From a virus, in IMG/VR virus record IMGVR_UViG_3300022934_000205, positions 1-22,850 of that record: 22,850 bases of DNA, one strand, 5' to 3'. Positions 2,987-18,425 of this stretch are shown piece by piece. The position numbers and the translations under genes are program-made. A model generated the notes under the pieces. It was not told the origin of the DNA and ran no database searches. It was given only the letters and a program-made list of their open reading frames with translations. Position 1 is the stretch's first letter. Each line of letters starts with the position of its first letter.

Positions 2987-4757
2987 TGTAGTAGTAGATT
3001 ATCGACGAGATCGGTATCTATCAGAGTTTAGTAAGAAAACTCTGCAAGACAGATATTTAATTGATGGAGAAATATCTCCTCAAGACGCGTTTGCACGAGC
3101 AGCAAAGGCTTTTGCTAATGATGAAGCTCATGCACAGCGATTGTATGATTATGCTAGTAAACTCTGGTTTATGTTTAGTACTCCTATACTTTCTAATGGA
3201 GGTACTACTCGCGGCCTTCCTATTAGCTGCTTTCTCAACTATGTTGATGATAGCAGAGAGGGTCTTACAAATCACTACACCGAGAATGCTTTCCTTAGCA
3301 GTGTTGGTGGCGGTATTGGCGGGTGCTGGAACGGGGTTCGGAGTGTGGGCTCGAAAACGAGCAATGGCTCCGAAAGTACGGGCGTTATTCCGTTTTTGAA
3401 AGTAGTAGATGCAGAAATGTTGGCTTTCAGCCAGGGTGTTACTCGTCGAGGAAGCTATGCTGCATATCTTGACATTTCACATCCTGAAATTGAAGAGTTT
3501 TTGGATGTTCGTAAGCCGACTGGCGGTGACGTAAATCGTAAATCTGTAAACTTGCATCATGGAATACTTATTTCAGATGAGTTTATGGAGCTTATTGAAG
3601 GAGCTACGAGAGAAGAAGGTTTCGATGACTCCTGGGACTTGATTGATCCTCATTCTGGAAGAGTTACAAAGACTGTATCTGCAAAAACTCTTTGGGTAAA
3701 ACTTATTCAAAATCGTGTAGAAACTGGCGAACCTTATATTATGTTTAAGGATACTGTGCAAGATGCTTTGCCTCAGTGTCAAAAAGATAAAGGATTACAA
3801 GTACATCACTCAAATCTTTGTAGTGAAATTACTCTTGCAACAGACGATGATCGTACAGCAGTATGTTGTCTATCAAGCGTAAATTTGGAAGAATTTGATG
3901 AATGGCAGCATGACCCGCATTTTATTCCAGATCTGATAGCAATGCTTGATAATGTTCTTACACACTTTATTGAGAATGCTCCGAATGAGTTATGGAGAGC
4001 CGTACATAGTGCAGAGCAAGAACGAAGTATTGGTCTTGGAGCAATGGGTTTTCATGCCTATCTTCAAAGACACCATACGCCACTCGAAGGAGTAATGGCG
4101 AAGAGCGCAAACATGAGAATGTTTCGCCACATAAAAACGGAGGCGCTAGATGCAACTCGTAAATTGGCTGAAGAACGGGGCGAAGCTCCTGATGCAGTGG
4201 GTTATGGCGTTCGTAACGTTCATCTCTTGGCTGTTGCTCCTAATGCTAGTAGTAGTATTATCTGCGGTAACACTAGCCCTAGTATTGAGCCTTACAGAGC
4301 TAACGCGTTTACTCAGAAGACTAAATCCGGATCCAGTCTTCAAAAAAATGAGTACCTTGAGCACATTCTTCAAGAGATAGGAGAAGATAACGATGAAGTA
4401 TGGAAAAGTATTGTTACAAACGGCGGTTCAGTTCAGCATCTTGACTTTCTTGACGACTTTACAAAAGACGTCTTTAAAACCGCAGTTGAAATTGACCAAA
4501 GATGGCTTATTGATTTTGCAGCCGATAGACAGCAATATATCTGCCAAAGTCAGTCTCTAAATGTATTTTTTCCTGCAAATGTATCAAAGCAAGAACTTCA
4601 CGCTATTCATATGATGGCATGGAAAAAGAAAGTAAAAACTCTATACTATTTGCGAAGCGAAGCGTATAAGCGTGCTGAAAATGTATCTGATGAAGCTCTT
4701 CGACAGTATATTTTTGAAAGCATGGACGAAGAGGGGTGCCTTGCTTGTGAAGGATAA
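2976..4757 (+). CDS. nrdA: Class I ribonucleoside-diphosphate reductase, large (alpha) subunit
   Basis: The catalytic subunit of an aerobic class I ribonucleotide reductase, reducing ribonucleotides to deoxyribonucleotides for phage DNA synthesis. At 593 residues it is shorter than E. coli NrdA (about 760). It begins almost directly at the catalytic barrel, so the N-terminal ATP-cone that senses dATP is absent. Key residues are C85 (PISC) and C297 (VCCLSS), the active-site redox pair; N280, C282 and E284 in NLCSE, with the thiyl-radical cysteine; Y557-Y558 of the radical-transfer chain; and a C-terminal swinging tail with C588 and C591 (CLAC). Start is GTG at 2976 with AAGGGAGA eight bases upstream. 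It overlaps the exonuclease gene at its 5' end and the glutaredoxin gene at its 3' end. The function call is secure; assignment to a subclass is less so. Confidence 0.96.
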   Translation: MSFNVVVDYRRDRYLSEFSKKTLQDRYLIDGEISPQDAFARAAKAFANDEAHAQRLYDYASKLWFMFSTPILSNGGTTRGLPISCFLNYVDDSREGLTNHYTENAFLSSVGGGIGGCWNGVRSVGSKTSNGSESTGVIPFLKVVDAEMLAFSQGVTRRGSYAAYLDISHPEIEEFLDVRKPTGGDVNRKSVNLHHGILISDEFMELIEGATREEGFDDSWDLIDPHSGRVTKTVSAKTLWVKLIQNRVETGEPYIMFKDTVQDALPQCQKDKGLQVHHSNLCSEITLATDDDRTAVCCLSSVNLEEFDEWQHDPHFIPDLIAMLDNVLTHFIENAPNELWRAVHSAEQERSIGLGAMGFHAYLQRHHTPLEGVMAKSANMRMFRHIKTEALDATRKLAEERGEAPDAVGYGVRNVHLLAVAPNASSSIICGNTSPSIEPYRANAFTQKTKSGSSLQKNEYLEHILQEIGEDNDEVWKSIVTNGGSVQHLDFLDDFTKDVFKTAVEIDQRWLIDFAADRQQYICQSQSLNVFFPANVSKQELHAIHMMAWKKKVKTLYYLRSEAYKRAENVSDEALRQYIFESMDEEGCLACEG

Positions 4758-4977
4758 AATAACAGTATGGGGCACAGAAGATTGTCAATTTTGTCATCTA
4801 GCAGAAAAGCTGGCAAAAAGCAAAGGATTTGAAGTAGAGAGTATCGAAGCAAGTCTTGATATGTTAAAATTTATGGAATTATTCCCTGGAGTCAAAACAG
4901 TACCTCAGATACTTATTGGAGATACTTGGATTGGGGGATATAGCGACTTGAAAGAAGTCTTAGAGAGCATTGAATGA
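4747..4977 (+). CDS. Glutaredoxin, electron donor for the phage reductase
   Basis: A 76-residue glutaredoxin-fold protein, close to the size of E. coli NrdH or Grx. It has a CQFC active site (C13, C16), the cis-proline motif T51-V52-P53, and the glycine pair with G63-G64-Y-S-D-L that shapes the glutathione or substrate groove. It would re-reduce the C-terminal cysteine pair of the large reductase subunit. It lies between nrdA and nrdB, and its TGA overlaps the ATG of nrdB (ATGA). The start is uncertain. GTG at 4747 gives a clean N-terminus (KDKITVWG), TTG at 4741 has better spacing from GAGG at 4731, and an in-frame ATG at 4672 would add 25 residues unlike the family. All of these lie inside nrdA. 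Confidence 0.9.
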   Translation: MKDKITVWGTEDCQFCHLAEKLAKSKGFEVESIEASLDMLKFMELFPGVKTVPQILIGDTWIGGYSDLKEVLESIE

Positions 4978-5933
4978 ATTTATTAACAGAAAGAGAATAT
5001 TACAAGCCTTTTAATTACCCTTGGGCTTTTAAACACTATAAAACTCAACAGCATATGCACTGGCTTCCTGATGAAGTAAATCTTGCGGATGACTTACGAG
5101 ACTATAGAGATAAGTTGACACCTGAGAATCGTAGACTTATCAATCAGATTTTTAGATTTTTTACACAAGCTGATGTAGATGTTTGTTGTGGATATGCAAA
5201 GCATTATCTACCAACATTTAAGCAGCCTGAAGTAAGAATGATGCTATCTGCTTTTGCAGCAATGGAAGCAGTGCATCAAGAAGCATATTCATTATTGTTA
5301 GAAACTCTTGGTTTTGGTGACGACGAATACCAAAAGTTTTTTGAACACAAAGCAATGATGGATAAACACGAGCATCTTTCCAATTTTGGGATGGATACTC
5401 CAATGAATATCGCTAAAACAATGGCAATTTACTCTGGATTTACAGAAGGAGTACAGTTGTTTAGTAGTTTTGCGATTCTACTCAACTTTCCAAGACATAA
5501 CTTGATGAAAGGTATGGGACAGATTGTTACATGGTCGATTCGTGATGAAACATTGCATGTTGAAGGTATGTCACAACTATTCCGTACTTTTATTCAAGAG
5601 AATCCAGAGCTATGGAATGATGATCTAAAGTATGAGATTTATTGTGCAGCAGAGCGCACAGTAGAACTAGAAGATGCTTTTATTGACTTATGTTTTGAAG
5701 GTGCGGAAGTGCCTGATTTAACTGCTGCAGAAGTAAAAGAGTATATTCGATATATTGCAGATCGTCGACTTCTTGGTCTAGGAATGAAGAAAATTTTTGG
5801 AAGTGAAAATAATCCTCTACCCTGGCTTGACTATATGTTAAACGGTGTAGAGCACACTAACTTTTTTGAAAACAGAGCCACCGAGTATGCGCGCGCGAGC
5901 ACTACCGGAAATTGGCAAGATATATTTAAATAG
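4974..5933 (+). CDS. nrdB: Class I ribonucleoside-diphosphate reductase, small (beta) subunit
   Basis: The radical-generating subunit that pairs with the upstream large subunit. Its 319 residues are within the normal range for NrdB/NrdF. The metal ligands match the R2 pattern: D67, then E98 and H101 in EAVHQEAY, E158, and E192 with H195 in DETLH. Spacings of 31 and 34 residues between D67-E98 and E158-E192 equal those in E. coli R2. Y105 sits at E+7 and so corresponds to radical tyrosine Y122, suggesting a tyrosyl-radical enzyme rather than a tyrosine-less variant. The protein ends in acidic/aromatic residues (NWQDIFK) that probably dock on the large subunit. The start overlaps the glutaredoxin stop by four bases, implying coupled translation. 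Confidence 0.95.
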   Translation: MNLLTEREYYKPFNYPWAFKHYKTQQHMHWLPDEVNLADDLRDYRDKLTPENRRLINQIFRFFTQADVDVCCGYAKHYLPTFKQPEVRMMLSAFAAMEAVHQEAYSLLLETLGFGDDEYQKFFEHKAMMDKHEHLSNFGMDTPMNIAKTMAIYSGFTEGVQLFSSFAILLNFPRHNLMKGMGQIVTWSIRDETLHVEGMSQLFRTFIQENPELWNDDLKYEIYCAAERTVELEDAFIDLCFEGAEVPDLTAAEVKEYIRYIADRRLLGLGMKKIFGSENNPLPWLDYMLNGVEHTNFFENRATEYARASTTGNWQDIFK

Positions 5934-5944
5934 GAATTTCTATT

Positions 5945-6124
5945 ATGGCAAATGAAAGTATTAAACTTGACCTATCTCTCGAAGAAATCAATATGGTTCT
6001 TGGAGGACTAGGCGAACTTCCAGCAAAAGCAAGTATGGGAGTGATTACTAAAATTCAACAGCAAGCGAGTCCACAGGTTCAACCCGAGCCTGTTGAGGCA
6101 CCAGAAGAAGGAGAGGAGGCGTAA
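5945..6124 (+). CDS. Small phage protein with acidic Pro-Glu tail (59 aa)
   Basis: A 59-residue frame starting MANESIKLDLSLEEINMVLG and ending in a Pro/Glu-rich acidic tail (PEPVEAPEEGEEA). The central part, LSLEEINMVLGGLGELP then GVITKIQQQA, resembles short proteins I have seen in many marine phages, for which I know no established function. The ATG lies 12 bases after the nrdB stop, with AGGA overlapping that stop serving as Shine-Dalgarno. It is the last gene of the plus-strand operon, and its stop codon forms the loop of the terminator hairpin. An acidic unstructured tail on a short helical head would suit a small regulatory or protein-binding role, which is inference only. Confidence 0.75.
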   Translation: MANESIKLDLSLEEINMVLGGLGELPAKASMGVITKIQQQASPQVQPEPVEAPEEGEEA

Positions 6125-6136
6125 GCCTCCTTTTTT
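6114..6136 (+). terminator. Rho-independent terminator ending the plus-strand operon
   Basis: AGGAGGC at 6114-6120 pairs with GCCTCCT at 6125-6131 around a GTAA (GNRA-type) loop, and six thymines follow at 6131-6136. The loop is exactly the stop region of the 59-residue gene, and the T tract runs into the stop codon of the converging minus-strand gene. On the minus strand the same stem is followed only by a pyrimidine-rich stretch (TCTCCTTCTTCT), so it may also terminate minus transcription, but more weakly. Confidence 0.9.
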
Positions 6137-6689
6137 ATGGTTTTGTAGGCCAAGTAATATTAGTTGGAAAGCCCTCTTGTTGAGGAACGTCTCTTAATGC
6201 TTGTCGGTAATCTAATAAAACCTGAGAAGGCTCTGGAGTATCAGAAAATACTAAATAATCTGTTTCTCTTAAAAGATAAAAACGCTTTCCGCGTGCTCTA
6301 TCAGCTAATTCTTCTTCTGTTAAATCTACGACTTCCCAATACTCTATGATATTATCTTCTGTTTGCCGTACTGCCGAAACTAATTTTTGAGTATCAAAGT
6401 TATACTCAGGCTCCGGTTCGGTAAGTATTGTTTTTATTTTTTCTCGCACAGCAGACTGAGGCCCAGTTAAAGTGTCTGAAAGTGCGGAGGGCGCACTTTC
6501 AGATCTTTCCCACGTATCACATATTACATGAGCAAAAGTTTCTATTTGGTCTCTAACTGACTCTTCTGATAAATCCGGCAATCTGAAAGAATGCACTATG
6601 TCTTGATGATTTTCATTACTCGACATATATCGTACTGATATAATAAGAGTGTTTGAATTGTAGTCTATTATTTCGTAAGTGTAATTCAT
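6135..6689 (-). CDS. Tail fibre assembly / phage tail assembly chaperone-like protein
   Basis: A 184-residue protein. Its last 50 or so residues contain LLRETDYLVFSD, then LLDYRQALRDVPQQEGFP and a final WPTKP. This is the signature of the tail assembly chaperone family (Pfam Phage_tail_APC as I recall it) and of C-termini in Tfa-type fibre assembly proteins. The N-terminal 120 residues are a less familiar alpha/beta region with no catalytic motif. Such proteins usually sit directly downstream of the fibre or adhesin they help fold, trimerise or cap, and here the start overlaps the stop of the glycine-rich adhesin-like gene by four bases (ATGA), so the pair is probably translated together. It could remain on the mature fibre as a tip protein. 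It is the last gene of the minus-strand cluster. Confidence 0.75.
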   Translation of the reverse strand: MNYTYEIIDYNSNTLIISVRYMSSNENHQDIVHSFRLPDLSEESVRDQIETFAHVICDTWERSESAPSALSDTLTGPQSAVREKIKTILTEPEPEYNFDTQKLVSAVRQTEDNIIEYWEVVDLTEEELADRARGKRFYLLRETDYLVFSDTPEPSQVLLDYRQALRDVPQQEGFPTNITWPTKP

Positions 6690-7687
6690 ACTGTATAAGT
6701 CCCTGAGTTTGCTGATGAGCCACTTGATATTACTCTTTTGACCCGCGTTCCCCCGATATAAATATCAATATACCCTGTCCCATTTCGATTACCGTTAGAG
6801 CCCGTAACTGTCACAGTAGAAGAGCCGCTATAAGCAGAGGTTCTTCCGTAGCCGCCTCCGCCTCCGCCTCCGCCGCCACCAGCGTTTGCACCTCCAGAAC
6901 CGCCTCCGCCATAGCCCCCGCCGCCGCCGCCGCCAAAGCCATCCCCGGCGCTTGCCCCGTCTCCACCGTAGCCGCCGTTATAACCTAAACTATTATTTCC
7001 TCTGTTAGCTGTATAGGGATTTTTGCCATTTGCTCCGGCTATGGTGCCTCCTGCGTTTCCTGGGTTTCCTCTATTTGAGCTTCCTGCTGAACCTCCGGTG
7101 CCGCCACCGCCACCGCCCCCGCCTTGTCCGAGTTGCGCCGTTGCAGTGGTTGGCATTGCCGAGTTCCCGCTATTATTTGCTCCCCCGCCATTACCGCCCC
7201 TCCCATCATTAGGGTCAGAATAAGTATAAGGGTCAGTGCCGCCGCCGCCGCCACCACCACCAATTCCAAGAATTACGCCTCCGGAAGTCCAGCGAATTAC
7301 TGAAGCGGCACCGCCGGGTCCACCTCTTTCATGCCTACCCCCATTGGTCGTAACATTATCGGTTGCTTGCCCGCCAGAATATAATTGAAATTGAGTCCCA
7401 GATGGTACGCTTAGTTGGCAACGAGTATATCCACCGTAGCCTCTTCCGCTTTGCGCGTTGTAGTTGCCTCCCTGAATGTTACCGCCCCTGCCTCCACGAA
7501 TACGTACATCAATAGCTACTGACGATGAAGCCCCATACCATTCGCTAAAAGCCATCTGCACACCCGAGGCTTTACCTATTAAGGCGCGAATATCAGAGTC
7601 GTTGATAGACACGGTAGTGCCGGATGTGCCTCCTGCCTCTACGTGTATCTCATTAAGACTAATTGCTCCGCTACTTTGAAGAGCCAT
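6686..7687 (-). CDS. Glycine-rich tail adhesin-like protein
   Basis: A 333-residue protein. The first ~55 residues (MALQSSGAISLNEIHVEAGG ... AFSEWYGA) match a short N-terminal module common on phage tail and structural proteins. Residues ~65-300 are extremely glycine-rich, with runs of up to nine glycines separated by short polar or aromatic loops, and the last ~30 residues form a beta-like end (GYIDIYIGG). Long parallel polyglycine runs are typical of polyglycine-II sandwich adhesins such as gp38 of T-even-like phage S16, where loops between glycine helices bind the receptor. This protein could be the receptor-binding tip. The DNA is locally much richer in G+C because of Gly codons (CCGCC repeats on the plus strand near 6850-7260). 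It is coupled to the assembly-chaperone gene downstream. The adhesin role is inferred from composition and position; no sequence homology to gp38 is claimed. Confidence 0.75.
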   Translation of the reverse strand: MALQSSGAISLNEIHVEAGGTSGTTVSINDSDIRALIGKASGVQMAFSEWYGASSSVAIDVRIRGGRGGNIQGGNYNAQSGRGYGGYTRCQLSVPSGTQFQLYSGGQATDNVTTNGGRHERGGPGGAASVIRWTSGGVILGIGGGGGGGGTDPYTYSDPNDGRGGNGGGANNSGNSAMPTTATAQLGQGGGGGGGGTGGSAGSSNRGNPGNAGGTIAGANGKNPYTANRGNNSLGYNGGYGGDGASAGDGFGGGGGGGYGGGGSGGANAGGGGGGGGGGYGRTSAYSGSSTVTVTGSNGNRNGTGYIDIYIGGTRVKRVISSGSSANSGTYTV

Positions 7688-7690
7688 ATT

Positions 7691-7933
7691 TTACTCTGCC
7701 GGAGGAGTTGGTGCGGGCTCTCCACTGCTTTCGGTAATTACTCCGAGAGCAATTTTATTTTCTACACCTGCTCCTACTTCTGCTACGCGAGCTTCTGTTG
7801 CAGTTGCATCGTAGCTTTCGTCTGTAAATACTGCGTTTACAGATCGTTCGTGTGTAATTGTACCGTCAGTAAAACTTACGTTTACAGTTCTATTTTCACC
7901 TTCTGGTGCATTATAAGTCCATGTTACTGGCAT
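7691..7933 (-). CDS. Small tail-cluster protein (80 aa), function unknown
   Basis: An 80-residue protein starting MPVTWTYNAPEGENRTVNVS with a beta-rich first half, an alanine-rich middle (ARVAEVGAGVENKIALG) and a Pro/Glu end (GEPAPTPPAE). There is no signal peptide or membrane segment. The start has a strong GGAGA Shine-Dalgarno and overlaps the last ten bases of the 1412-residue fibre gene; three bases separate its stop from the glycine-rich adhesin gene. I do not recognise a family with confidence. Its position directly after an S74 fibre parallels the 103-residue protein at 12175, which suggests a fibre-associated or assembly role, but nothing in the sequence proves this. Confidence 0.7.
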   Translation of the reverse strand: MPVTWTYNAPEGENRTVNVSFTDGTITHERSVNAVFTDESYDATATEARVAEVGAGVENKIALGVITESSGEPAPTPPAE

Positions 7934-10900
7934 TTAATTATCTCCTTGAGTTCTTCGATTTGAGCTTGTTGCTCTTTGATTGCTTCGATTAATAATGGTA
8001 TAATCTTTTCTTTGTCTACGGTTAAAAACTTGTGTTCTTCTCCAGTATCTTTTGTGTGTTCTACACTAAAAGGAGCTTCTGTAATTGCATCCGGAATTAT
8101 TTTTTCAACTTCTTGAGCAATGACTCCGTGCTCAAAATTACAAACAGGTTTAAAGTTATATTTTTCTTCTAAATCATCTCGCCAGTTAAAAGTTACGCCC
8201 CTTAATTTTAAAACCTTATTCAAAGCGTTATCAATAGTAGTAATATTTGTTTTTAATCTTTCATCTGAAGAGTATGCAGTAATATTTCCTGTTGCTAACA
8301 AGTTTCCTACAACTCTTACTCCAGAAAGCCCATAACTACTTCCCCCATCGAGATAAATTCCCGTGGGCCAATCTAGTTTAAGCTGTTGATAGTTGGGGCT
8401 GGTCCACGTGCCAGATGTTCTATAAATGGAGTAGGTAGAGGCATTATGCCAAAAAATACCTTCTGGGTATGATGCAGTATGGCCTACACTTGCTGGGGCA
8501 TAGGTTCCATTGGTAGAAAGAGTGAAAGTATTAAAAGTAATTCCACCCGTTGCAGTATCGTTTGCATCACTTCTTAAAAATGAAGCGCCTTGTATTCCGT
8601 CTACAGTATCAGCATCTAAACCTGAACCAGAGCCGTCGTTACCGGCATGCCATATAGTATTTCCACCATATGTAAAACTGTTGCCATTTACAAACTGAAT
8701 ATCTCCTGCTGTAGTTACCTTTAAACGCTCGGTCGAAGTAGTGCCAGACATAATTCTGACGCCTTTTGACGAGGTTGTTCGTTGAGCAAGAGTTAGCCAC
8801 CCTCTATCTGCAACAAGAGTAATTCCATCCGCCGTGTACACACCCGATGTAGATGTACCTCCATAGTGTAGAAAAAACCCTGCATAATTTGAAGTATTTG
8901 CTTGACTATCAAATTGAATACCTGCGTAGCCACTTGAAGGCGCTCGAAATTTTAAAGTATAGTTTGTGCGAACAGCTCCATCCATGTTTGCCCACATGCC
9001 GGATTTATGAATACCATCAAGAGTATCAGCATCAAGACCAGAGCCAGAACCGTCATTGCCAGCGTGCCAAACAATATTAGAGGTGCTATTATTTAAGCTC
9101 ATGTTACCGCTGGGAGTTTTTCTAATATCCCAAGCGCCCCACTCAGATGCTAGAAAGCCATAATCACCCCCCGCACCATATAACTGAACTCTAAAAGCAT
9201 CATTTGCATCTTCTAGTAGTAGAGCTGAAGCGCTTGTTGATCCGCTACGAAGAACTATATTTCGGTCGCCTTGCTGTAGAGTTTGTATTCTATCAATGCT
9301 TGCGTCTTTTACAAATAGTTTATTTGTACCATGAGCCGTCCAGTTTAGTATTACAAGAGACACATACCCAGTACTAGGAGCAATCCACTCTCGAGTTAAA
9401 GATACATAAGAAGTTGTAATAGCTCCGTTTTCATACCAACTTGTATCTCCGCCCGTTTCTTCTTGAACTAACGTGTGTGTTGCAGAGTTTGATACGTGTG
9501 TTTTTCCAGCAGGAAGATTACCAGTATAGTAATAAATTCTTGCATATAGACCATTTGAAGAAGCAGTATCTCCTTTAACTTGAACATTAAATTTTAATCT
9601 TTCTCCCGCAGTTACCGGGATTGCTTTGTAGACAGCACCTATACTCGTATCAGTTGTGCTATGGATTGCTACTGCTCTTTCAGAAAAATCGTAATAAACG
9701 GATGCTTCAGCCGAATTACCATATGCTGGGTTCCATCCTTGTATTCTTGCATATGTTTCTTGAAGGCCCTGAAGTTGTTGACCATCAAGAGTATCAGCAT
9801 CAAGACCAGAGCCAGAACCGTCGTTACTAGCTCCCCATACCGTTCCTTGAACCGTAGTGGAGAAAGATCCCCCGGTAGTGAGCACTGCTCTTTGTCCGCC
9901 ATTACAAATAAAAGATAATTGATGGTTTGTGTATGTGCCAACGTGCCCCATAGCGCCGCCATGCCAGCTATCGTGGGCATAAATACCCATACGCACATTG
10001 GCGGTTTTTACATTTATTCTTGAGTGGCCCGATCCATTTACATTTAATTGAGTATCCCAGCCGTCATAATTGGTTGGCGTTTCACCAATAGAAAGTCCAC
10101 CATAAGTTGCTCCATTTATATAAGCATTTCCCCCAACATATAATGTTGTGCTGTTGGGTCCGGTAATGCTTTCTCCTTGTCCAATACTTAAGCTTGTAGC
10201 AATTGTAGCGCGACCATTGACTGTGAGAGACATTGCTCCGTTACCCAAGCCGTGCCCTGAATCTCCCCACCAAAATCCACGATCAGATTGAGTGTCATCA
10301 TTCATCTGGAAGGTCATGGCCCAATCGTTTAGATGACCGTAAGTAATATTATCTTGCATTCCGATAGCGTAATTACTACCGGGGTATACTCTAATTTTAT
10401 CTCTAGAGGAAGCATTAGTAGCAGAAATTGTAGTGAATTGACCACTACTATTTGCCATATCTGTATAGTATGAGCCCTGCTGTCCGTCGAGTAGGTCAGC
10501 ATCAAGACCAGAGCCAGAACCGTCATTATCAGCGCCCCACGCTTCATAGCCCCCTCGTAATAGTACGCTTGAGCCAGCTAGATAAACGGGTGCGCTTGGG
10601 TTGTTTATGTAAAGATAATTAGTTGAGCCACTTCCATACCCTATATAACCCAAATTACTTCCATTTGCTTGAAAATAAAAATAAATATTTGCATTTGTTG
10701 CATTTGTTGCATTTGTATCGTTTAATTTAAATATATTTCCGCTTGCAACTGAAAAAGTCTTGACTCCAGTAATCGTCTGCGACCCACTAAGAGTTAATAG
10801 GTTTGAACCTTGTATTCCATCTACAGTGTCAGCGTCTAACCCCGAACCAGAGCCGTCGTTACCTGACGACCAAACGGTATCGCTACCACTTGAACCTATT

Positions 10901-12162
10901 GTAAGCACGCCCGAGGAAGTGAGCTTTGCTTTCATACTCCAACTAGTGCCGGTATTTCCACTGGTATCAAAGTACCAAGTCAAATGTCCGGAAGCGTCTA
11001 AGTGCTGTAAAAACGTTGTACTCGATGTGGTACTACGAAATGCATAAGAAGGGTATGTGCCGTAAAGTGTAAGAGCTTCAATATAGGAACCCGTATCCCA
11101 ATCTGCATCAATAAGTAAAGGTGTGTAAGAAATATTATCAGTTGCAGTTAGTTCGAGAGTTTTTCCAGAGCTATTTCCAGTTGGAGCCATTCGAATAATA
11201 CTTGCAGCTCCGTTAGACCATATAGTCGACTTTCCACTGTTATATCCTGCTCCCCACTGCAAATTATATCCTCCAGGAAGAGTTAAACTACCTGACGCAA
11301 TTGTAAGATTTCCTGTAAAAGTATCGGAAGTATCACTTCTTAAATACTTTGAGTCAGTTTGAGTTGTAATGTCAAAAGAAGTAATATAACCAGCACCATT
11401 CGTTAGCTGGTTGTTATTCGTTGGGATAGTTGGTTTGCCAGTCAAATCAGCATAAGCGCCACTAAACGACGATGTGCCTTTTGCATCGAGCTGTGTTTGA
11501 ATATTACTAGTTACACCATCTACATAATTAAGTTCCGCAACAGTTGCTGTAATACCAAGATTAGTTAGTGCATTTGTTTGTTGTGTTCCAGTTAAACCCT
11601 GAGAAGCTGTATCAATTCTTAAACGATTACCTAATGATGTCGCTGTCGTTGTAGAAAAGTTAGCATCATCACCCAGGGCTGCAGCCAATTCATTTAGTGT
11701 ATCAAGAGTAGTGGGTGCGCTGTCAGTAATTGAAGCAATAATACTACTCGAAGTGCCGTATCCATTTGTAGAAAGATAACTTGCTACACGAGCGTCTGTA
11801 TAGTAAAGATTCGTAGAGCCTTCTGTAATTTCATCAGAGTTATCTTTTGTTTGAATTTGAGTACCTACATAGTCAATCAGGGCCGCAGTTGTAGGAACAG
11901 TAGTATCATTATCATTTGAACCACTAATTCCCGTAGACGAAGTAATTGTTACATCAGTATGCAGTTTTGCAAAAGTTACATTTGCATCAGCAAGATTTGC
12001 AGTATGAACAGCTCCATCCGCAATTTTTGCGTTGGTAACCGCATCCGTCTGTAATTTAGCCGTAGAAATACTACCATCTGCAATAGTATCAGAAGACGCT
12101 TTCGAATTACTATCAAGATTTCTTAGCCACTCTGCTAACCGTCTGCCCTTCGATTTTGACAT
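7924..12162 (-). CDS. Long tail fibre with C-terminal S74 (endosialidase-type) autoprotease/chaperone
   Basis: A 1412-residue fibre protein. The N-terminus (MSKSKGRRLAEWLRNLDSNS) leads into a repeat region of the type DGSISTAKLQTDAVTNAKIADGA. A collar-like segment (LNYVDGVTSNIQTQLDAK, LTGKPTIPTNNNQLTNGAGY) follows. A long beta-structured shaft carries at least five copies of the motif NDGSGSGLDADxxDG. The C-terminal ~115 residues form a peptidase S74 / intramolecular chaperone domain: S1299 and K1304 in SDERLK fit the Ser-Lys dyad, HGVIAQEVEKIIPDA is the family core, and a C-terminal helix (KEQQAQIEELKEII) closes it. In known cases this domain drives trimer folding and then cuts itself off before the serine, so the mature fibre would end near residue 1298. 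It probably binds a host surface receptor. A GGAGT Shine-Dalgarno precedes the ATG. Confidence 0.92.
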   Translation of the reverse strand: MSKSKGRRLAEWLRNLDSNSKASSDTIADGSISTAKLQTDAVTNAKIADGAVHTANLADANVTFAKLHTDVTITSSTGISGSNDNDTTVPTTAALIDYVGTQIQTKDNSDEITEGSTNLYYTDARVASYLSTNGYGTSSSIIASITDSAPTTLDTLNELAAALGDDANFSTTTATSLGNRLRIDTASQGLTGTQQTNALTNLGITATVAELNYVDGVTSNIQTQLDAKGTSSFSGAYADLTGKPTIPTNNNQLTNGAGYITSFDITTQTDSKYLRSDTSDTFTGNLTIASGSLTLPGGYNLQWGAGYNSGKSTIWSNGAASIIRMAPTGNSSGKTLELTATDNISYTPLLIDADWDTGSYIEALTLYGTYPSYAFRSTTSSTTFLQHLDASGHLTWYFDTSGNTGTSWSMKAKLTSSGVLTIGSSGSDTVWSSGNDGSGSGLDADTVDGIQGSNLLTLSGSQTITGVKTFSVASGNIFKLNDTNATNATNANIYFYFQANGSNLGYIGYGSGSTNYLYINNPSAPVYLAGSSVLLRGGYEAWGADNDGSGSGLDADLLDGQQGSYYTDMANSSGQFTTISATNASSRDKIRVYPGSNYAIGMQDNITYGHLNDWAMTFQMNDDTQSDRGFWWGDSGHGLGNGAMSLTVNGRATIATSLSIGQGESITGPNSTTLYVGGNAYINGATYGGLSIGETPTNYDGWDTQLNVNGSGHSRINVKTANVRMGIYAHDSWHGGAMGHVGTYTNHQLSFICNGGQRAVLTTGGSFSTTVQGTVWGASNDGSGSGLDADTLDGQQLQGLQETYARIQGWNPAYGNSAEASVYYDFSERAVAIHSTTDTSIGAVYKAIPVTAGERLKFNVQVKGDTASSNGLYARIYYYTGNLPAGKTHVSNSATHTLVQEETGGDTSWYENGAITTSYVSLTREWIAPSTGYVSLVILNWTAHGTNKLFVKDASIDRIQTLQQGDRNIVLRSGSTSASALLLEDANDAFRVQLYGAGGDYGFLASEWGAWDIRKTPSGNMSLNNSTSNIVWHAGNDGSGSGLDADTLDGIHKSGMWANMDGAVRTNYTLKFRAPSSGYAGIQFDSQANTSNYAGFFLHYGGTSTSGVYTADGITLVADRGWLTLAQRTTSSKGVRIMSGTTSTERLKVTTAGDIQFVNGNSFTYGGNTIWHAGNDGSGSGLDADTVDGIQGASFLRSDANDTATGGITFNTFTLSTNGTYAPASVGHTASYPEGIFWHNASTYSIYRTSGTWTSPNYQQLKLDWPTGIYLDGGSSYGLSGVRVVGNLLATGNITAYSSDERLKTNITTIDNALNKVLKLRGVTFNWRDDLEEKYNFKPVCNFEHGVIAQEVEKIIPDAITEAPFSVEHTKDTGEEHKFLTVDKEKIIPLLIEAIKEQQAQIEELKEIIKCQ
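8590..10863 (-). repeat. Five dispersed ~50-base repeats encoding NDGSGSGLDADxxDG
   Basis: Copies lie near 8590-8643, 9011-9060, 9778-9826, 10481-10530 and 10810-10863 within the 1412-residue fibre gene. They share a core such as AGCATCAAGACCAGAGCC on the plus strand. Two sub-types are visible: the first and last copies resemble each other (encoding DADTVDGIQG), and the middle three form another group. They mark the joints between shaft segments of different sequence, so they are coding repeats. They could serve as sites of homologous recombination that swap or delete shaft segments. Confidence 0.85.
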
Positions 12163-12174
12163 TTTGTATACTCC

Positions 12175-12486
12175 TTACCAAGGTATCCCAGAGCTGTGAG
12201 TCGGGTTAGCCTGTTCTGCGATCTGTGCGTCGATAGCGGCTTCAACAGCGGCTACTTCATCGTCGCCCATTGTGGCCTTAGCCCACCCAACGGCAGTTTC
12301 TTCGGTAATATTAGCCCACTCGATAAAAGACTCGCCGGGGCTTTCGAGTCCTACAGTCCCGTAGGAAGAACCAGAGTTGTCGCCGTCTTCCTTTGAACAG
12401 CGCCAGTGTATGGTAGTCACTACGTTGGTGTGACCGTCTTGTGATACGTTGTAATCCATTGCGGATATAGTCCAGTTGTGTGCCAT
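12175..12486 (-). CDS. DUF7936-like small phage protein (103 aa)
   Basis: A 103-residue protein starting MAHNWTISAMDYNVSQDGHT. It has a beta-hairpin-like first half (NVVTTIHWRCSKED, then SSYGTVGLESP), a helical middle (EWANITEETAVGWAKATMG) and a conserved-looking end (IDAQIAEQANPTHSSGIPW). This pattern closely resembles small proteins common in cyanophages and other marine phages that I associate with DUF7936; the number is from memory. No biochemical function is known to me. The gene starts four bases after the stop of the 1556-residue S74 fibre, with its own AGGAG Shine-Dalgarno, and precedes the second S74 fibre by 12 bases. A structural or fibre-accessory role is therefore likely but inferred. 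Confidence 0.8.
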   Translation of the reverse strand: MAHNWTISAMDYNVSQDGHTNVVTTIHWRCSKEDGDNSGSSYGTVGLESPGESFIEWANITEETAVGWAKATMGDDEVAAVEAAIDAQIAEQANPTHSSGIPW

Positions 12487-17180: not shown

Positions 17181-17227
17181 GCGTATATACGCGAAGGATT
17201 ATATTGTTTAGAACGTGCCGCCGTCGA
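17181..17227 (-). promoter_or_regulatory. Possible promoter with 12-base palindrome at the predicted start site
   Basis: In the 47-base gap before the 1556-residue fibre gene there is a perfect TATAAT on the minus strand (plus 17198-17203). Eighteen bases upstream lies TCGACG (17222-17227), four of six matches to TTGACA, within the end of the preceding coding region. The perfect palindrome GCGTATATACGC at 17181-17192 begins five bases after the -10 and would cover the start of transcription near 17191, the position of many operators. The weak -35 makes promoter activity uncertain. Confidence 0.45.
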
Positions 17228-18425
17228 GTGTCGTAATCTGAGTCTCAAAGTTTACTGTTGTCAACAAGTTAGCAGTAGTTAAAGTATTACTATTATTGGG
17301 ATCGGGCTCAAATACTTGCCAAATGTCAGAAGTCTCATTCCAACGCAAGTAAACATTTGTTGCTGTGCCTCTCTCAATTTCAATACCTGCATTTTGCGAA
17401 GGAGTACCCGTTTCATCACGATTGAGAAGAATAATATTATCGCCAATCTCTACAGTGTTTGAATTTACCGTAGTAGTTGTACCATTTACAGTAAGATCAC
17501 CCGCGATTGTTACAGCACCATCGTCTGCAATTGTCATTGCAGAAGTAAATGAATTTACACCTGTACCGCTTGTAGCACCATCAGCAGTTTGGAAAATAAT
17601 TGAACCGCCCGCACCTGCTCCAGTACCCGCACCCGCTTTTAAAGTAAGATTTGTACCTGCAGCATCCGTGCCCGAACCATCAATACCATGAATAACTTGC
17701 ATGCCATCAATAGTGGATGTAGTGCCTGTCGTATCGCCTAAAGTAAGTTCTGTGCTTCCAAGGAATGTAGAGTCATTTGCAAGTTGAGTATTTGAAATTC
17801 CTCCAGTTGCAATACTAACCGCTCCTGAAGAAACAGAAAAATCTGCAGAGCTAAAAGATGCAATACCTTTTGTAGATGTAGTAGCATCATCTCCAGTAAT
17901 TGTTACATCATCACCAGTGTTACTTGTAGTAATACCGGTTCCACCAAGAATCTTTAACTTATCTGTAGCAAGAGCTACAACATTGTCCACCGCGTCGTCA
18001 GATTGAATAGTAAGACTTGTAGTAATCGAAGCAGTGCCCGCTGCGGTCAAACGACCTTGCTGGTCGACCGTAAAAGTAGGAATCGCAGTAGAAGAGCCAT
18101 AACTTCCAGGAGTTACAGCAGTATCGTCAAGATCTACACTAAGTGTTGCTGTAGTTCCTGACTTAGCAATAGTAGTAGTAATACCAGTATCACCAGTAAT
18201 ATCAAGAAGATCTTGAATATTAATTGTTACATCAGTACCTGAATCGCCTCCGACTGTAAGAGGAGCGGTAGATGCAATTACAATATTACCAGTGGTTCCA
18301 TCAGGATGCCCGATAAAAAGTTTATCAGAGTTACTTGAATACGCGAGTTCGCCTGCCGCTAGACTAGTACTGGGAGCGGCGGTGGTTGTACTGCGCTTAA
18401 TTTGAATAGTTTGAGTAGTGGCCAT
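17208..18425 (-). CDS. Fibre-like structural protein with Mtd_N-like N-terminus (405 aa)
   Basis: A 405-residue protein. The N-terminus (QTIQIKRSTTTAAPSTSLAA, then GELAYSSNSDKLFIGHPDG) is of the Mtd N-terminal type and parallels the start of the 1556-residue fibre. The middle is a Thr/Ser/Gly-rich beta region (DVTINIQDLLDITGDTGITT, and FTVDQQGRLTAAGTASITTS) typical of phage fibre proteins. A segment near residue 320 (DLTVNGTTTTVNSNTVEIGD) is also paralogous to part of the 1556-residue fibre (near 465). The C-terminus is TQITTLDGGTF, resembling the end of the neighbouring 132-residue protein. No S74 domain is present. It may form a short fibre or the base onto which the long fibre attaches; this is inferred from shared modules. 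Start ATG sits within the palindrome CCATTTAAATGG and has a GGAGA Shine-Dalgarno. Confidence 0.82.
   Translation of the reverse strand: MATTQTIQIKRSTTTAAPSTSLAAGELAYSSNSDKLFIGHPDGTTGNIVIASTAPLTVGGDSGTDVTINIQDLLDITGDTGITTTIAKSGTTATLSVDLDDTAVTPGSYGSSTAIPTFTVDQQGRLTAAGTASITTSLTIQSDDAVDNVVALATDKLKILGGTGITTSNTGDDVTITGDDATTSTKGIASFSSADFSVSSGAVSIATGGISNTQLANDSTFLGSTELTLGDTTGTTSTIDGMQVIHGIDGSGTDAAGTNLTLKAGAGTGAGAGGSIIFQTADGATSGTGVNSFTSAMTIADDGAVTIAGDLTVNGTTTTVNSNTVEIGDNIILLNRDETGTPSQNAGIEIERGTATNVYLRWNETSDIWQVFEPDPNNSNTLTTANLLTTVNFETQITTLDGGTF

Follow-up and report, generated by a model that had tools for sequence, protein, structure and literature searches.

The question raised by this locus is what a protein of extreme glycine content does for the phage that encodes it, and how it is mounted on the virion. 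Its gene occupies positions 6686..7687, on the minus strand, of a 22,850-nucleotide stretch of viral DNA (IMG/VR record IMGVR_UViG_3300022934_000205, positions 1 to 22,850; hereafter the window). Our answer, which we regard as likely when taken as a whole, is that this protein serves as the receptor-binding tip on a tail fibre. Judged from sequence, the gene very probably encodes a tip adhesin, and we lean, less firmly, towards docking of its N-terminal connector on the cut end of the fibre. The reading frame, placed by the initial annotation without naming a strand, proved exact: it begins with ATG, encodes 333 amino acids and contains no internal stop codon. Over the whole frame, the ratio of non-synonymous to synonymous substitution rates (dN/dS) is 0.16 and 0.23 against two relatives, and because the frame is thus under purifying selection we take the gene to be real.

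Residues 1-55 are a conserved connector that is common to the N-termini of many otherwise dissimilar proteins. The window protein matches phrog_26746, a family of unassigned function in PHROG, over residues 2-67 (expectation value, E, 1.2e-17). A query with residues 1-54 found 260 IMG/VR stretches that encode a relative, of which the best 80 were kept together with the best 80 of 113 from a further scan. The resulting 163 loci, labelled with L-numbers, derive from three IMG/VR scans, a scan of genome contigs, phage AD45-P1 and the window's own copy (L002); they are a top slice by connector similarity in which the same contigs recur, and the counts given here refer to distinct proteins, not to independent events. 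There are 99 distinct complete proteins of at least 110 residues (grouping used 98 names, two L065 proteins having shared one), and all 99 match phrog_26746 at the N-terminus. Across a 98-row alignment, the connector (56 residues per row) shows 64-84% identity to that of the window, with 1 invariant and 23 nearly invariant columns. The parts that follow the connector fall into 61 groups by masked blastp, and 38 of these groups (68 proteins) contain less than 20% glycine and are mutually dissimilar; the count of 61 over-splits the glycine-rich tips because low-complexity sequence was masked, so that the window protein and its L084 homologue are separated despite 76% identity. At most 18 open codons precede the connector in 162 hits, and the connector is therefore not part of a longer fibre protein. 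The initial annotation had spoken of a different N-terminal module and of an adhesin possibly fused to a phage structural anchor, and this is supported: the connector is a distinct module with the look of an anchor. Its predicted helices are short (residues 11-14 and 30-37, at moderate confidence in the second of two AlphaFold2 models), a connector profile found no match in the PDB up to E 10, and comparison with the gp38 N-terminal domain by hhalign gave no similarity (probability 0.5), on which ground an apparent likeness to the gp38 N-terminus around I-G-K/R...E-W, seen by eye, was dropped. Cultured carriers at E 1e-5 are limited to five records of Alteromonas phage AD45 (P1 to P4, P1 twice), whose connector is 65% identical to that of the window over 57 residues, and the genome-contig search gave one locus, in a gammaproteobacterial metagenome-assembled genome. 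A literature search, in which the connector sequence itself was not searchable, found no description of the connector as a shared mount, of its link to S74 fibre ends or of fibres that stop at the S74 site. One contig, L065, carries two connector-bearing tip genes (L065:2519 and L065:3743).

The genes upstream of the connector identify its probable partner. Neighbours were analysed with one gene per locus (n = 98), and an upstream open reading frame was defined as the longest one of at least 60 amino acids on the same strand that ends between 250 nt before and 30 nt after the tip start. Such a frame exists at 91 loci; the seven without one are L021, L053, L063, L109, L120 and L155 and the window's own row (L002), which was taken in the opposite orientation and is not among the 91. 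The upstream gene ends no more than 30 nt from the tip start in 83 of the 91 and further away in 8. The self-cleaving chaperone domain Peptidase_S74 (PF13884) is present in 63 of the 91 at E 0.01, and a further 19 terminate in the motif T-A-F/Y-G-x. None of these 19 short fibres matches PF13884 up to E 1, and the two sets are therefore disjoint and together make up 82 of the 91. When all 91 are aligned, the 19 motif ends fall at a common column. The serine of an S-D motif lies three columns further on, and in the 46 rows in which the pattern was found this motif is at one and the same column. Cleavage by the S74 chaperone has been placed at a serine in the excerpted account of PMC10579305, and because of this known behaviour we equate the T-A-F/Y-G-x end with the S74 cleavage region. 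On the sequence evidence, then, the 19 fibres stop at an S74 cleavage-site motif and are without the S74 domain. These 19 (L136, L008, L024, L025, L029, L030, L032, L034, L045, L047, L049, L051, L054, L057, L064, L065, L070, L072 and L076) represent 7 groups at 60% identity, and in 18 of them the fibre stop overlaps the tip start as TAATG. The protein might instead decorate the capsid or neck, or be some other structural component away from the tip, with fibre genes as incidental neighbours, and the lack of an assigned function for phrog_26746 would allow this. We nonetheless consider it very improbable, given that 63 + 19 of the 91 upstream genes encode fibres that carry the S74 domain or stop at its site, that GP38 domains and 'host specificity' matches occur on the same connector (see below), and that relatives whose neighbouring genes are similar have different variable parts, a behaviour expected of receptor-binding regions.

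The initial annotation likened the protein to the tip adhesin of phage S16, in which gp37 carries PF13884 and the next gene encodes gp38. An adhesin of this S16/T-even type, a beta-helix with a polyglycine-II sandwich that differs in its N-terminus only, would account for glycine runs with variable loops and for the order of S74 fibre then tip. Such proteins do occur on the connector: the glycine-rich parts of ten relatives (L008, L020, L032, L047, L051, L052, L079, L099, L121 and L127), compared by hhalign with eight gp38-family proteins, gave a probability of 95.8 (E 7.9e-9 over 95 columns), and a PDB search with the same ten placed the S16 gp38 chain 6f45 second (E 0.057). PF05268 (GP38) is found in 4 of the ten at E up to 1, the best at 3.2e-6, and in 3 of the 99 connector proteins at E 0.001, while 6 of the 99 match phrog_2056, 'tail fiber protein; host specificity'. 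The connector therefore carries known receptor-binding domains where such domains belong. The window protein, however, has no Pfam match at all, either to Gp38_N (PF21721) or to GP38, both of which are matched by S16 gp38 as a positive control. Its close family, three sequences with little power (the same family also missed the relative L111), gave an hhalign probability of 2.3 against the eight gp38 proteins, and strands are predicted on both sides of the glycine part. T-even gp38 of phages S16 and PP01 (PDB 6f45; PMC12892980, as excerpted) resembles the window tip in being a separate protein encoded after an S74-type fibre, with glycine-rich motifs that alternate with variable loops and a constant N-terminal part; it differs in that the window tip has no detectable similarity to either gp38 domain and a different predicted middle fold. 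We therefore think it unlikely that the window protein is of the gp38 type, and on this point the initial annotation was not supported, the Pam3/ALK match described below being nearer, if weak. A parallel tip swap is seen in Klebsiella phage Roth66 (L170:701-1240), one of the eight gp38-family proteins compared, which joins a T-even gp38 N-terminal part to a C-terminal part that is not glycine-rich.

Glycine accounts for 104 of the 333 residues of the window protein and for 89 of 235 (38%) within residues 56-290. Runs of at least three occupy residues 143-150, 167-169, 189-196, 252-258, 260-263 and 270-279; one is of 3 and the others are of 8, 8, 7, 4 and 10, the longest being 10. When residues 56-333 were shuffled 20,000 times, a run of at least 10 arose in a fraction of 0.00385 and at least five runs of at least four glycines in 0.085, and for this reason the composition is the extreme feature of the protein, with clustering in runs moderately beyond chance. 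The claim that more than 200 residues are dominated by glycine runs is thus borne out as to composition and somewhat strong as to 'dominated', since the five runs of at least four glycines hold 37 residues. A local G+C content far above the surroundings was also confirmed, with a maximum of 0.588 (6751-7250) against mostly 0.34-0.45 elsewhere in the window. High G+C was rejected as a mark of foreign DNA, being largely explained by glycine codons: third-position G+C in non-glycine codons is 0.34 in the tip gene (0.31 for residues 56-333) against 0.23-0.29 in four neighbours, and in glycine codons it is 0.56, compared with values of 0.34 and 0.40 for the two big fibres.

Comparison with the two close relatives L083 and L084 separates a constant from a changing component. 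The loops differ in 40 of 87 columns (L083) and 34 of 87 (L084), or 39-46%, whereas the glycine runs differ in 5 of 58 and 3 of 58 (5-9%) and contain no gaps; dN is correspondingly higher in loops (0.42 and 0.35) than in runs (0.08 and 0.06). Positive selection in the loops was considered and is not shown, their dN/dS being 0.18 and 0.31; the ratio is 0.05 and 0.06 in the runs and below 1 in every part where it could be computed. The pattern fits a glycine framework that stays fixed while its loops change freely, though it does not prove positive selection, and the suggestions of non-invariant loops on a glycine framework and of a recombinant adhesin are both supported. As to exchange, glycine-rich parts are 75.5% (L084) and 72.7% (L083) identical to that of the window, whereas for NrdB, encoded at a distance of a few hundred bases, protein identity is 99.7% (L087/L089) and 96.9% (L083). 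In the L084/L089 phage dS rises from 0.22 in NrdB to 0.7 in the chaperone gene that follows the tip and 1.2 in the tip, and the tip cassette therefore appears to have diverged earlier than its surroundings, as recombination would bring about. The L089 contig moreover has its tip and chaperone genes together at a different position. Four other loci (L004, L023, L028 and L074) retain the small gene that lies between fibre and tip in the window (46-90%), the fibre end (35-60%) and the connector, and carry dissimilar tips; the three of them that have the chaperone keep its C-terminal part at 54-63%, with N-terminal similarity mostly lost. A comparable exchange, of fibre and chaperone as a unit between distant marine phages, is described for Alteromonas phages A5 and V22 in the excerpts of PMC10579305; these concern fibre and chaperone, and no account of the connector was found in them.

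The chaperone itself, the neighbour that the initial annotation had called Tfa/APC-type, was confirmed as such by matches to Phage_tail_APC (PF16778, E 8.9e-16) and to phrog_4912, tail fiber assembly (E 3e-17). Its N-terminal part is the more variable: identity to L083/L084 is 77.5-82.5% there and 87.5-92.2% in the C-terminal part, and at loci with other tips (L023, L028, L074 and L066) the corresponding figures are at most 31% and 47-63%. In phage Pam3, according to the excerpted report (PMC9608196), the chaperone gp25 has the same distribution of variable and conserved parts, contacts the tip through its N-terminal part, and is proposed to assist the folding of gp24 and then to leave. The window chaperone may likewise be matched to its tip domain, help the glycine-rich domain to fold and then depart.

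Pam3 also offers the closest published parallel for the fold. Its tip protein gp24 (PDB 7yfw and 7ypx), as described in the same excerpts, has a folded TNF-like plus glycine-rich domain with 39% glycine, whose likeness to ALK has been published; it resembles the window tip in glycine content (~38-39%), conserved runs, variable loops, a beta-sandwich (predicted in the window) and a Tfa-type chaperone gene (gp25) directly downstream. The two differ in that the N-terminus of gp24 is a long alpha-helical trimer bundle docked on the baseplate, as opposed to a 55-residue connector, and in that the window tip is encoded after a large S74 fibre; their direct similarity in sequence is weak. When a profile built from 16 glycine-rich connector proteins was run against the PDB, Pam3 fibre chains ranked first (E 8e-4), with ALK chains at 0.011-0.052. 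In the first AlphaFold2 model, low-confidence strands lie on one side of the glycine-rich insert at residues 56-64, 87-95, 99-104, 128-133 and 139-143 and on the other at 291-297, 305-311, 314-321 and 328-332. A structural second look with this model returned ALK/LTK as rows 1-12, at Z 4.4-4.8 over 112-154 residues, where Z below 8 may be chance; the rows span residues 54-329, a Bxb1 phage tail tip scored Z 3.8, and no Pam3 chain appeared. The glycine-rich (TG) domain of ALK/LTK (PDB 7lir and 7nx0) likewise has a glycine insert flanked by strands on either side; these are animal receptors, and the likeness to the window tip is weak and of shape only. Because sequence and structure methods point to the same published fold, we consider a TNF-like plus glycine-rich fold, rather than the gp38 type, reasonably probable, while noting that both lines of evidence start from the same alignment and that each piece is weak; packed glycine strands in the tip are likely, with neither model confident in that region. 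Gly_rich_2 (PF21722) is found in 13 of the 99 connector proteins at E 0.001. The window protein has no match to it up to E 0.1 and aligns with several PF21722-matching relatives through strands and runs in a multiple alignment, on which alone the link rests because hhalign gave a negative result between its closest family and L111, a Gly_rich_2 relative. When ten glycine-rich proteins were scanned, 8 gave some match to Gly_rich_2 at E up to 1, one being below the cut-off, and L084, the closest homologue, was one of the two with none. Further searches returned little: tblastn of the window glycine-rich part and two other tips against cultured phages gave no match (low-complexity filtering costs sensitivity), NCBIfam gave nothing for the tip or Tfa genes, and a profile built from the three nearest glycine-rich domains hit a single-chain variable fragment construct and two other unrelated chains in the PDB. 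A viral structure library returned mainly glycine-rich proteins with poor superposition. Four phage proteins among the hits listed bear the name 'receptor protein-tyrosine kinase', probably from likeness to the ALK glycine-rich domain and not because they are kinases.

Several results, including the L111 comparison and the low Z scores, weigh against the explanation or parts of it. Mean predicted local distance difference test (pLDDT) values are 45.2 for the first model (predicted template modelling score 0.41) and 52.6 for the second, which was built on 97 mostly connector rows and is somewhat better there (block means 57-77 for residues 1-50); a structural search with the second model yielded no match. 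An unrelated DUF4425 protein reached Z 3.9 in the second look, so that the ALK/LTK rows exceed it by only about 0.5-0.9, and ALK, the best Foldseek match in the PDB, has a non-significant E of 0.48. The profile that found Pam3 and ALK was built from relatives and not from the window protein alone, which by itself gives only linker, low-complexity and chance-level PDB matches; low-complexity chains (a calcium-channel subunit and an HIV gp140 construct) fall between its Pam3 and ALK E-values, and the alignment to Pam3 is strongly biased in composition, with a best-segment E of 0.0078. At the level of the locus, the small 80-residue gene separates S74 fibre from tip in the window. The L089 tip follows a 711-residue gene in which no S-D motif was found, and its tip and Tfa genes (3977-5553) together precede the last fibre (5557-7697, S74-like by eye), the reverse of the window order. 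Tfa/APC neighbours are rare, at 9 of 93 downstream genes with the window included. Exchange is not clearly indicated by L083, where dS in NrdB (0.64) is similar to the value for Tfa (0.53) and only somewhat lower than the value for the tip (1.0). Finally, pLDDT is below 50 through nearly all of residues 144-290 in both models, a result that would count against a lattice by the initial annotation's own criterion but was obtained where the alignments are shallow, and the non-glycine residues of 75 segments from 31 glycine-rich tips show no excess at a lag of three, with a deficit of z -2.7. The lack of confident structure and of a period of three are what would be expected of a flexible, disordered brush, a spacer or loose sticky coat with no folded lattice. 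The conservation of the runs in place and length, at the low dN/dS given above, would be unneeded by a floppy spacer, and the Pam3 domain is folded at a similar glycine content; we therefore judge the brush improbable.

Taken as a receptor-binding tip, the protein would work as follows. The S74 domain of the fibre would be cut off, or would never be made, so that the fibre end is exposed, and the connector would dock there non-covalently. Residues 56-143 and 288-333 would build a TNF-like sandwich to hold extended glycine strands, packed alongside one another, and these would point the variable loops at the host surface; a swap of the part after residue 55 could then change the receptor without rebuilding the tail. 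A wider proposal, on which we are evenly divided, is that residues 1-55 are a general plug for cut S74 fibre ends, mounting dozens of unrelated tips, GP38-type and ALK-like included, in mostly marine phages, and that some of these phages have dropped the self-cleaving chaperone, the fibre stop at the cleavage site being translationally coupled to the tip. Published work already covers phage tips of both glycine-rich folds and modular fibre exchange. If the proposal is true, the connector signature would mark host-recognition tips across many uncultured phages in a family now labelled as of unknown function, and host-range genes could be found by sequence. Two separately described glycine-rich tip folds would share one mount, and natural fibres without the S74 chaperone would be available for study of its role.

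Table 1. Coordinates of features at the tip locus of the window
Feature	Position	Strand	Basis
Putative glycine-rich tip adhesin gene	6686..7687	minus	Open reading frame and purifying selection against two relatives
N-terminal connector module, residues 1-55, phrog_26746 type	7523..7687	minus	phrog_26746 match and alignment
First half of predicted TNF-like beta-sandwich, residues 56-143	7259..7522	minus	Low-confidence strands
Glycine-rich insert, residues 144-287, with conserved runs and variable loops	6827..7258	minus	Run and substitution counts
C-terminal strands of predicted beta-sandwich, residues 288-333	6689..6826	minus	Low-confidence strands
Tfa/APC-type tail-fibre assembly chaperone, 184 aa	6135..6689	minus	PF16778, phrog_4912
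Small gene, 80 aa, between fibre and tip	7691..7933	minus	List of open reading frames
Tail fibre, 1412 aa, proposed to be capped by the tip	7924..12162	minus	PHROG tail-fibre matches
Peptidase_S74 self-cleaving chaperone domain of the 1412-aa fibre, residues 1299-1360	8083..8268	minus	PF13884, E 2.6e-16

The fibre, the 80-residue gene, the tip and Tfa are tightly packed on one strand (Table 1): the 80-residue gene overlaps the 3' end of the fibre gene, the Tfa start overlaps the tip stop as ATGA, and NrdB lies beyond the Tfa gene on the plus strand. The 80-residue protein has no Pfam or PHROG match and has relatives at L028 (90% amino acid identity), L023 (81%), L084 (70%), L004 (59%) and L074 (46%). 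A second IMG/VR contig (L003) is 99.9% identical to the window across 5.5 kb. A megablast search of the window against cultured phages gave no match, and every relative of its flap endonuclease and NrdB there is below 60% identity; no close cultured kin was therefore found in that collection. Between the converging nrdB-side and tail-side genes, at 6112-6137, an apparent inverted repeat, seen by eye, is followed by a run of T and is probably a terminator. A DUF7936 gene lies between the two large S74 fibres (12175-12486, minus strand), and DUF7936 also adjoins tips in related loci (4 of 91 upstream and 3 of 93 downstream genes). No reverse transcriptase was seen by eye among the listed open reading frames of the window (no dedicated search for one was made), and a 405-residue protein encoded at 17208-18425 on the minus strand has a below-cut-off match to the N-terminal domain of the major tropism determinant.

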